In this document: positions 17,049-37,552 of the stretch, piece by piece
Layout: each line of letters begins with the position of its first letter
How positions within the stretch are numbered: the first letter of the stretch is position 1
NCBI GenBank assembly: GCA_009733575.1
Contig: ML769565.1
Location: 64,713 to 128,712, forward strand
Direction: 5' to 3'
Length of the DNA stretch: 64,000 nt
Origin: Gymnopus androsaceus JB14
Lineage: Eukaryota > Basidiomycota > Agaricomycetes > Agaricales > Omphalotaceae
Notes under the pieces: generated by a model
The model's database searches: none
Told to the model about the DNA's origin: nothing
The model's input: only the letters and a program-made list of their open reading frames with translations
Translations under genes and position numbers: made by a program

Positions 17049-17439
17049 CACACCGCCAATCATTATGCTTCAGCCAGGCTGAAGCATAATGCGAAATGAT
17101 TAATTTCAATACATGTATGAAATGTGACTTTTCAGAGTACTGTAGAAAAATATATTTCATTAGACAAATGAAATAAAAAATTTCAGATCATCTGAAATGG
17201 GAAGTTTCAGCCAGGATCCGAAACCTATTGTTTCGGACAGAAGCTGAAATAATCACCTTCAACCGGGCTGAAAGGCTACTCAAAAAGGCATCTTTCAGAA
17301 GCCGAGCGAATCATTTCATTTCAGCAGCTTTTTCAGGGCAATGCTGAAATGACATATATCATCTGTGCGGCGGCTTAGCGGCAGCGTAGCGTACTCTGTA
17401 GGTCTGTAGCGTGCACTGAAGTGCATAGCGGAGGCTCAC
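17049..17439 (+). repeat. left long terminal inverted repeat of the composite element
   Basis: Matches the reverse complement of 37168-37552 along its length. Shared blocks include the first 26 bases, ggatccgaaacctattg, tttcggacagaagc, tttcagaagccgag and cagggcaatgctgaaatga. The many tttcag/ctgaaa motifs are subterminal repeats. Confidence 0.8.
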
Positions 17440-17619
17440 AGAAATCCTTAATATTATACCAAATTTGACCAAGAAAACTCAAGTAATACATATACACAAC
17501 TGGTAAGATACACATATTAACAATAGTCCTTGTTCGCTACTCATGACAACTAGAGATCGATCGGCCTCTGGCCTTGAAGAGTGTTATAAAAATATGTAAA
17601 CACTATGGAATGACATACC

Positions 17620-18480
17620 TGTCCGTTAAAATTGAAGTTGTAGGATCAGAATTTCCATCGCCAATGCCTCCGTCTCCACTACCAAATGTCAGGGTGACCC
17701 CTCGAGCACCTAGTTTGATAGAAGCGTTGGTGGCATGCTCGAGGTTGCATAGTAAACCAAAGTCTTCTGGGAGATGGACTTGATTGAGATATCAATGTCA
17801 CCGAGGTTTTCAAAGCATCCATGGGAGTTTCTCCATGCAATTGTTTCGAGCATAGAGCATCCGAAGACTAGGAATTCTTTCCAAATACACATCGTTGAGA
17901 ACAATTGGAAGAGATATCAAGCCAAGTGAGAGAGAGGGTGGCACTGACATTGACTCTTTTGTGCCCCATTTGTGAAAGGCGGAGTTCTGTTAGAGAGCTG
18001 CAGGATTGGATGAAATCCGAGGCATAGGGTTGCGGGAGAGAGAGAGAGAGAGAGAAGATTTGCGTGTTGGTGCAAGTCAACGGGGATAGTTCGTAGGGAA
18101 CGCCCCAAAAGATCAATGTGCTCGTAGTCTTCAATGTTGAGGTTTTGTTCCTGCCAACGCATCTTATATTATCACTGTTAAAATTAGGTGAAAAAAACAT
18201 ACTGTTGACCCAAATACTTGACTCTTGTACACAAATTTCAACAGAAATGATAAACCATCGCCAGCTAAGAGGTCAAACCCGTCTGCTACATCATAACCTG
18301 CCTGCTCCAGCCTCCGGCGAACAATATCCGCAGGTCGCTCGGTGTTACCGCTGCACAATAGGCGAAAATCATTGTTAGTCATCCAGGCGAAAAGAACAAG
18401 AACAAGTAAACAGGCAAAACGCACCCTATCAATATTCATATACAACTCTGTCTCGAGCATTAGCCTTTTTTGAGTTGTCG
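17620..18480 (-). pseudogene. adenylate cyclase fragment (RA domain to first LRRs)
   Basis: The minus-strand reading gives ERPADIVRRRLEQAGYD, LSFLLKFVYKSQVFG, LLGRSLRTIPVDLHQHA and DFIQSCSSLTELRLSQMG, which match the junction between the Ras-associating domain and the leucine-rich repeats of basidiomycete adenylate cyclase. Introns are retained, for example one ending TTGTGCAG near 18352 with a TGACTAAC branch site. The frame breaks in an expanded (TC/GA)n tract at about 18031-18060. The catalytic cyclase domain and everything after the first repeats are absent. Non-functional fragment inside the composite element. Confidence 0.75.
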
Positions 18481-18800
18481 CCAGCTGTAGTGGGATGATA
18501 GTGAATGGAGCACTATCAGAGAAAAACGACGAAGAAAAATTAGCATCAGTCAGAGATACGCTCTAACAACAAATAAACAAGCAAGTTTACTCACTTTGAT
18601 GGAAGGCATAAGGCTTTAACACCAGCTCGAATTGTCCACTGTCCAGGCAATTGAAATCCAAGACATTGCTCAACACTAGAGCTAAGTCAGCTCATCAACC
18701 AGTCAGTGGTTCAGCGCTTTGAATTGCCTTGCAACATCATCGGCAAACTCAACCTACAAAGACCTCAATAAGGTCCCTGAAGCTTCCATGATTTGTGCTG

Positions 18801-36400: not shown

Positions 36401-37072
36401 ACATTTTTAAATACATAACTAATGTACAACATCTCAGTCCGTTCCTCAATCTCCATCGTCCCGCAAACACCAGACCTTTTCAAAGGCACACTTCGCGAAA
36501 ACATTGACCCCGTCGGCGAACATAGTGATGTCAATATCTGGGATGCATTGGGGCAGGTGCATCTGAAGGAGTTTGTCGAGGGGTTACCTGATGGCAAAGG
36601 ACTAGATGAACCCGTTTGGAAGGGAGGCTCAAGCTTGAGCAGCGGACAAAGACAGTTGCTGTGTTTCACGCGCACGCGTTGTTGAGAAGGTCGAAAGTCT
36701 TGATGTTGGATGAGGCCACGTCTGCTGTGGATCTCGACACGGACAAGGCAATTCAGGATATCATCCGTGGGCCAGCGTTCAAGGATGTTAGGATTTTAAC
36801 CATTGCGTGAGTGGACCTGCTGAGGATTATGTATGACCTTGACTGATTTTGCATTCTGTATAGTCATCGCTTGAATACGATTATCGACTCGGATAGGGTG
36901 TTAGTACTAGTAATGGACTCGGGACGGGTGAGTATTAGCTCTCTTTATTCCTCTCTCCCGTGCTAATATTAGTATGTGGATTGCTGAACTTGAAGCACCG
37001 GAGAAGCTGTTGGAAAAGAAGGATTTGGTGTTTTATTCTCTGGCCAGTGATGCTGGGTTAGCGGGGAAGTAA
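33430..37072 (+). pseudogene. ABCC-type (MRP-like) ABC transporter, C-terminal half, inactivated
   Basis: Begins in the last helices of the first membrane domain and NBD1: VLSVKDADFSWA, then GDLVGVFGKVGAGK (Walker A), followed immediately by IALARAVYAWADL. The Q-loop and signature sequence of NBD1 are therefore deleted. It continues DDCLAAVDSHVARHIF, NSIAFIRQFDSLVYIRRG, linker, second membrane domain (YIAYVKAASKTAFTLFML, LRAWGEHNRETGSNDG, APLSFFELTPTG), NBD2 ([61 protein letters not shown]) and terminus FYSLASDAGLAGK with TAA at 37070-37072. TAG replaces an expected Gln codon near 35522, followed by a frameshifting deletion. The first half is missing. Confidence 0.85.
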
Positions 37073-37167
37073 CAGGATTCAAGCTCAAGCGCAGTATACA
37101 GTATTACTTAGGTTTTTTTTGTGTGCTGTGTGTACTTCTGAATGATATCCTGTTTCAAGAAATCCAG

Positions 37168-37552
37168 TGTAAGCCTCTGCTGTGCAGTTCAGCGTACGCT
37201 ACGGAGTACGCTATGCTGCCGCTAGGCCGCCGCCTAGATGAAGTTTGTCATTTCAGCATTGCCCTGAAAAGGCTGCTGAAATGGAATGATTCACTCGGCT
37301 TCTGAAAGATACCTTTTCGGGTAGCCTTTCAGCCCTGCCGAAGGTGATTGTTTCGGCTTCTGTCCGAAACAATAGGTTTCGGATCCTAGCTGAAGGTTCC
37401 CACTTCAGATGGTCCGAAGACTTCTATTTCGTTTGTTCAATGAAATGTATATTTTCTCTAGTTGACCGAAAATTCAGATTTCGCCTATATTCTGAAAGTA
37501 TTTACTTCACATTACACTTCAGCCTAGCTGAAGCATAATGATTGGCGGTGTG
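37168..37552 (-). repeat. right long terminal inverted repeat of the composite element
   Basis: Reverse-complement partner of 17049-17439; begins 96 bp after the ABC transporter stop. Outer end GGCGGTGTG followed by ACT. Confidence 0.8.

Follow-up and report, generated by a model that had tools for sequence, protein, structure and literature searches.

The window, a 64,000-nucleotide stretch covering positions 64713-128712 of contig C183 in the genome assembly of the mushroom Gymnopus androsaceus JB14, of the Agaricales and the family Omphalotaceae (83.27 Mb in 934 contigs), contains a 20,504-bp element at 17049-37552 that has inverted repeats at both edges. This element is very probably a non-autonomous CACTA/EnSpm transposon of the Pack-CACTA kind, which would have grown as host DNA was inserted into it again and again in the course of repair. 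It inserted as one unit, most of its interior matches other places in the genome, and an incomplete sister element on another contig (C381) suggests the order in which three of its pieces were acquired.

How DNA transposons pick up genes is still debated, with excision-gap repair, transposition-independent gap filling, and hybrids of neighboring elements all under discussion. Because a single assembly preserves the matching donor places along with a sister copy and a third one that shares part of the contents, acquisitions can be ordered here within one element. In addition, a family of similar-sized elements with differing contents amounts to a readable record of host-DNA collection.

Termini and insertion of the element

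An earlier note on this DNA had described two inverted copies of one sequence, each bordered by ACT, and both tips were present as described, with CACACCGCC at 17049, GGCGGTGTG at 37552, and ACT outside each. Alignment of 17049-17401 with 37199-37552 as inverted repeats gave 84% identity, and similarity across the family extends over about 390 bp. The borders, including the two terminal inverted repeats (TIRs), are laid out as follows.

17046..17048, no strand: target-site duplication ACT, left; the joined flank with a single ACT matches unoccupied repeat copies
17049..17401, plus strand: left TIR; family similarity runs on to about 17440
37199..37552, minus strand: right TIR; family similarity runs inward to about 37161
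37553..37555, no strand: target-site duplication ACT, right

The termini are CAC..GTG, as CACTA/EnSpm requires. Among 19 tabulated ends, which were picked for their similarity to those of the window element, 18 start with CACACCGCC or CACACGGCC, and the remaining one (C761) starts with CACATGGCC. In the four TIRs for which it was tallied, the subterminal motif TTTCAG/CTGAAA occurred 10, 6, 6, and 7 times per 390 bp, compared with a mean of about 0.2 and a maximum of 3 in shuffled sequence. Bases 13-43 of the tip (17061-17091) form a near-perfect palindrome, ATTATGCTTCAG..CTGAAGCATAAT, that is present in many other ends.

We also found sites that resemble the locus before insertion. The joined flanks of the window element match a dispersed repeat of about 100 bp across the joint at ten places with 84-94% identity and at five more with 77-79%, and 7 of these 15 matches show no length difference; all are paralogous repeat copies within one assembly. 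When the joined flanks of a second complete element, C485, were searched in the same genome, two of the eight matches were the occupied site itself. The six others cross the joint and are 96-98% identical along the entire 297-base query. By eye, the sequence that runs through the joint of these empty sites resembles a Copia-type reverse transcriptase. These matches show that the element inserted as a single unit with a 3-bp duplication. The notion that the two repeats are independent insertions chancing to flank decayed genes, to which the hundreds of family tips in the genome lend some room, has a negligible probability, because the joined flanks of the window element equal unoccupied repeat copies; in addition, ACT stands on both sides of 17049-37552, four further complete elements, comparable in size, bring the tally of matched 3-bp duplications to 5/5, and the sister element on another contig shares the interior.

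Host DNA inside the element and the probable order of its acquisition

We searched the interior (17441-37160) against the genome, with 39 of 58 candidates scored. Matches on contigs without a listed TIR end covered 18,455 of 19,720 bases (93.6%), or 18,452 when C79, which overlaps the stretch of C424, was dropped from the count of donors. Eight firm donors, defined by at least 85% identity over at least 300 bp in at least one piece (C15, C75, C424, C161, C25, C117, C2, and C17), cover 17,004 bases (86.2%); the C117 donor is a tandem family, and a further copy on C161 is weaker. The family C75:174158/C337/C189, with three copies, passes the firm cut but is multicopy, and weaker sources (C125 at 75%, C154, and another place on C15) raise the number of sources to as many as about 12. 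The pieces, together with an inverted block discussed below, are listed here.

17735..18350, no strand: captured piece, three-copy family C75:174158/C337/C189; 83-85%, with a 77-bp part at 76-79%
18398..18814, no strand: weak-match piece, C125:37422-37841; 75%
18865..20290, no strand: captured piece, C117 tandem family; up to 87%
20328..20412, minus strand: 85-bp piece, donor C75:163649-163731; parted from the other C75 sequence by the inversion
20413..37094, no strand: block of about 16.7 kb inverted relative to C381; C381 joins window 37094 directly to 20414, and the same inversion renders donor C75 continuous
20432..21175, no strand: captured piece, donor C2:377269-378013; 90%
21252..24242, no strand for the block: captured block, donor C424:28219-32045 with gaps; 89-91%; coding pieces of a GST N-terminal domain and an MSH6 3' end on the minus strand
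24243..26325, no strand: captured piece, donor C25:144721-146750; 82-85%; tandem duplication of about 171 bp absent from C381
26322..29650, no strand: captured piece, donor C15:336865-340452, nested in C25; 91-94%; BTB-domain piece
29651..29993, no strand: captured piece, other side of C25 (143003-143344); 94%
30002..30096, no strand: captured piece, other side of C424 (25656-25750); 94%
30873..31181, no strand: captured piece, donor C17:273079-273397; 88%
31184..33597, plus strand: captured block, donor C161 (70572-72241, 64298-65053); 82-87%; alpha/beta-hydrolase-like piece, below the Pfam cut-off
33593..33870, no strand: piece of C154:62075-62274 plus 69 bp of C154:63129-63198; junction with C75 common to C366
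33871..37094, plus strand: captured block, donor C75:159959-163647 with gaps; 81-93%; 3' part of an ABC transporter of subfamily C

Host-matching pieces run from 17735 to 37094, which bears out the array of gene fragments that had been proposed between the repeats. The accompanying figure of at least nine host genes holds as a count of source loci, although only five pieces can be named, one of them below Pfam's cut-off. Profile or structure searches named the MSH6 3' end (MutS_V, 2e-12; the best solved structure is MSH6, 2.9e-6), the GST N-terminal domain (2.9e-5), the BTB domain (1.1e-8), the subfamily C ABC transporter (ABCC4, 4.9e-22), and the alpha/beta-hydrolase piece, whose Pfam match lies under the cut-off. 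No Pfam family was found up to the E-value asked in 15 of the 20 window frames tested (one of them a near-repeat), and a guess by eye that 22140-22535 encodes a DHHC palmitoyltransferase received no support.

Because the donor matches are collinear at the DNA level over kilobases, genomic DNA rather than processed RNA was probably captured. A C-to-T bias like that of repeat-induced point mutation was not strong in either copy: C>T plus G>A changes numbered 133 versus 100 T>C plus A>G among 311 differences for the window element, and 135 versus 101 among 338 for C381. The captured DNA also carries a warning for annotation. The first part of a deposited G. androsaceus protein, P0134 (BT96DRAFT_999185), matches the window frame at 25160-25765 by eye, and the protein appears to be a spliced model of captured C25 sequence that lies inside the transposon.

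The sister element C381 extends to its contig start and has about 10 kb of mosaic in common with the window element at 92-95% identity. Its right-type TIR, 96% identical to the window's right end, leads through window position 37094 directly into 20414, so that positions 16.7 kb apart in the window adjoin in C381. Donor C75 is split in the same way, with 163200-163647 at 36639-37094 and 163649-163731 reversed at 20412-20328, and a single inversion of 20413-37094 explains both observations. The earlier description of a single composite element stands as to its being one unit, but the element is one of many, and the greater part of its interior runs in the opposite direction to that of the sister copy. 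The two copies differ further in small gaps and in the tandem duplication, and a 287-bp repeat at C381 5220-5506 (97-99% identical to other copies) is absent from the window element. Given that C381 holds the same C424/C25 and C25/C15 junctions on a separate contig, an assembly artefact or chimera is highly improbable, even in an assembly of this many contigs in which several such elements end at contig edges.

In C381, the donors follow one another as a nest: C424 up to 25750, C25 143002-144720, C15 (333549-333929 and 335290-340452, with gaps), C25 144721-146750, and C424 from 28219. C25 is broken between the adjacent bases 144720 and 144721 with no base lost, about 2.5 kb of C424 is missing at the nest site, and the alignments at the four nest junctions overlap by 1, 4, 4, and 0 bp. 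The simplest order of acquisition would be C424, then C25, then C15. Length-weighted identities to the C424, C25, and C15 donors were 90.8, 87.4, and 92.2% for C381 and 90.2, 84.2, and 92.0% for the window element.

A dispersed family and its putative transposase

The TIR belongs to a dispersed family. When the genome was searched with the left TIR, the 40 candidates scored, of 218, yielded 40 TIR-like places, and a search with another end type (40 of 202 scored) added three, on C263, C546, and C132, making at least 43 places, some of them partial. A 25-base pattern for the tip, with at most two mismatches allowed, occurred 232 + 248 times in the genome, compared with 0 for a reversed control. 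Positions are known for the first 100 places listed, and among these a spacing of about 567 bp joins a number of tips into pairs. The short element that the earlier note had placed beside the large one is real and of the same family, a miniature inverted-repeat transposable element (MITE):

16081..16648, no strand: MITE, 568 bp, same family; TAT/TAT duplication

The region C97:158500-168800 holds a TPR/CHAT-domain gene between short family copies, among them a 645-bp MITE with the duplication att/att. We considered C97:158568-168734 as a compact autonomous copy and rejected it, since besides the 645-bp element it contains another set of tips around this gene and gave no tnp2 match.

Five elements are complete: the window element, C485 (21,161 bp), C366 (23,971 bp), C225 (22,328 bp), and C309 (21,290 bp). 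Their perfect duplications are act, act, att, acg, and aag, respectively. Because the two ends inside each of them are 81-84% identical, while single ends reach 97-99% identity between elements and the types of end occur in several combinations, ends were probably recombined between elements.

We also searched 10 kb each of C366 (39 of 202 candidates scored) and C225 (35 of 36 scored), and found that 7,445 and 8,974 of the 10,000 bases, respectively, match outside listed elements, partly at dispersed repeats. The larger donors were C9, C15, C75, and C154 for C366 and C228, C7, C69, and C74 for C225, so that the two sampled elements hold other donor sets than the window element. The exact junction of C154:62075 with C75:159959 is common to the window element and C366, and C309 and C485 have several kilobases in common in altered order.

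A genome search for the tnp2 domain PF02992, in which 35 of 35 candidates were scored, gave 33 occurrences, none of them on C183, C485, C366, C225, or C309. Because C183 carries no such match, the window copy is non-autonomous, although still a member of CACTA/EnSpm. A 598-aa frame read from C792 matches PF02992 (E = 4.9e-12), and copies of this protein at 67-87% identity lie on C782, C122, C75, C429, and C867 (73 of 124 candidates scored). C792, C782, C429, and C867 bear the same TIR, and in 4/4 the transposase is found on its inner side at a distance of 5.8-12.6 kb, an arrangement read from sequence for C792 and C782 and by coordinates for C429 and C867. The occurrence of this TIR on four of the six transposase contigs has a hypergeometric P of about 2-3e-5. 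Two further pieces on C782, one of an ABC transporter and the other an AMP-binding C-terminal piece, suggest that transposase-bearing copies capture host DNA too. The best outside match, at 89%, is a JGI-source protein, and named relatives occur in Mycena, Tetrapyrgos, and Collybiopsis.

The CAC..GTG ends, 3-bp duplications, dense TTTCAG repeats, and tnp2-type transposase in relatives with the same TIR place the family in CACTA/EnSpm rather than Plavaka, in agreement with the class first proposed for it. Helitrons have neither TIRs nor target-site duplications, and the inverted repeats and 3-bp duplication of the window element rule them out. Plavaka is abundant in the genome (150 matches, 123 of 255 candidates scored), and pieces of its transposase lie on C183 at 26385-27405 and 40203-41207. 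Both places are outside the window, and the termini of the window element differ from the TGT..ACA or CATCA..TGATG given for Plavaka in a paper that assigns CAC..GTG termini and 3-bp duplications to fungal EnSpm (PMC12730594); Plavaka was therefore rejected as the source family.

Proposed growth of the element, known systems, and neighboring features

Under the Pack-CACTA reading, a break or excision gap would arise inside an existing element, repair would switch to an unrelated template or insert a stray piece of DNA, and the new piece would be joined at junctions overlapping by 0-4 bp. Having kept its ends, the element would still be mobile after enlargement, and a transposase supplied from elsewhere would need only those ends. 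Each acquisition would thus represent filler DNA or template switching during repair, and excision may be the origin of the breaks. On a broader scale, near-constant elements of 20-24 kb might form a self-enlarging archive that serially acquires host DNA by nested, repair-linked insertion, with differing interiors, exchanged end types, and captured blocks passed on, acting as a genome-wide shuffler of gene fragments; we consider the chances of this extension to be evenly balanced.

Alternatively, growth may have been independent of transposition, with breaks in a large, unselected element healed with unrelated DNA whether or not the element was moving. This is possible, though we think it the less probable course. 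The insertion of C15 into C25 with zero C25 loss would fit it, as would the inversion, gaps, and tandem duplication in one element, which suggest repeated breakage, and similar gap filling is described for animal Pack-TIRs (PMC8277862). Taken alone, however, it leaves the gathering of host DNA between these particular ends unexplained.

It is also conceivable, but unlikely, that the element is a hybrid of neighbors, as in the scheme that a review outlines for Arabidopsis Pack-CACTA (PMC13317346), wherein elements with complementary terminal deletions enclose the genomic DNA between them and contribute one end each. The 81-84% identity of the ends within each complete element, the matches of single ends to others at up to 99%, and their several combinations speak for such an origin. 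The scheme nonetheless yields one contiguous, transposon-bordered stretch per event, whereas the nested junctions that we examined show different donors abutting with no transposon sequence between them, and it does not predict that C15 would enter C25 while every C25 base is retained.

Several observations weigh against the repair-linked Pack-CACTA reading that we favor. No capture step was observed, and the window element's empty-site matches extend only 24-33 bases to the right of the joint, with 24-31 bases in the ten matches at 84-94%. C381 is incomplete, and a rise in identity toward the center of the nest, which we looked for, was only partly seen, with C15 closest and no simple gradient. 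Because identity in the nested pieces is only 82-97%, what we call a donor may in some cases be a paralogue of the actual source. Donor places may themselves lie inside unlisted or degraded elements, given that 40 of 218 candidates were scored in one TIR search and 40 of 202 in the other and that tips are known for the 100 places listed; C125 is a suspect donor in this respect, since a family tip at C125:49250 (minus strand) lies about 11 kb from the match and the place may be inside an element. Finally, C122 and C75 carry a close transposase with no such TIR in the scored lists, C792 extends off its contig, C782 was read in part, and no compact autonomous element was identified.

Copies of plant Pack-CACTA are usually shorter and have fewer donors. 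Gene-carrying CACTA elements are known from plants, and transduplication by other DNA transposons has already been reported in a fungus; no fungal Pack-CACTA was found in the open-access literature that we searched. Our element contains host-gene DNA between TIRs, with the parent sequences elsewhere, and inserted as a unit, which is what defines Pack-TYPE elements. It thereby resembles the plant elements, which are described as non-autonomous TIR elements, CACTA included, with host gene pieces (PMC8903248, PMC13317346), but it resides in a basidiomycete, draws on about 12 source loci in one element with three nested acquisitions ordered, and has complete relatives of 20.5-24.0 kb. In Pyrenophora tritici-repentis, hAT and Tc1/Mariner elements likewise carry extra genes between TIRs, a case of transduplication that its report calls the first example in fungi; there, extra open reading frames recur in near-identical copies, with hAT forms of 5.6 and 2.3 kb (PMC3538342), whereas the elements here are fragment mosaics that vary by copy. 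Captured gene pieces also occur in mushroom transposons of Pleurotus ostreatus, although these are rolling-circle Helitrons (PMC4289320), unlike the elements described here with their TIRs and 3-bp duplications. The termini and duplications are like those outlined for fungal EnSpm, and the termini, despite the abundance of Plavaka in the genome, differ from those of Plavaka (PMC12730594). Animal Pack-TIRs have fillers with short microhomology (median 2 bp) at their breakpoints, and these often come from within 15 kb (56.9%) (PMC8277862), while the serial fillers here match many contigs.

The transposon is flanked by two pairs of related sequences: stretches at 13478-14710 and 38713-39519 (79-89% identity), the right one in an F-box-like gene, and 161-bp inverted copies at 8881-9041 and 44650-44810 (89%), 35.6 kb apart. 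The F-box frame at 37866-39356 probably lacks annotation in G. androsaceus, because its best matches among the proteins of that species reach only 72-88%. An inverted repeat of 195 bp at 10016-10414, whose arms are 96% complementary around a loop of 9 bp, is made of CATCCTGGG-like units; it would form a long hairpin and is possibly a foldback element. Farther to the right, at 58056-61736 on the plus strand, a 1226-aa open frame contains about 15 tandem 126-bp (42-aa) TPR repeats at 69-92% identity to one reference copy, along with ankyrin repeats and a weak DUF7779 match, and it resembles a fungal NLR-type protein.

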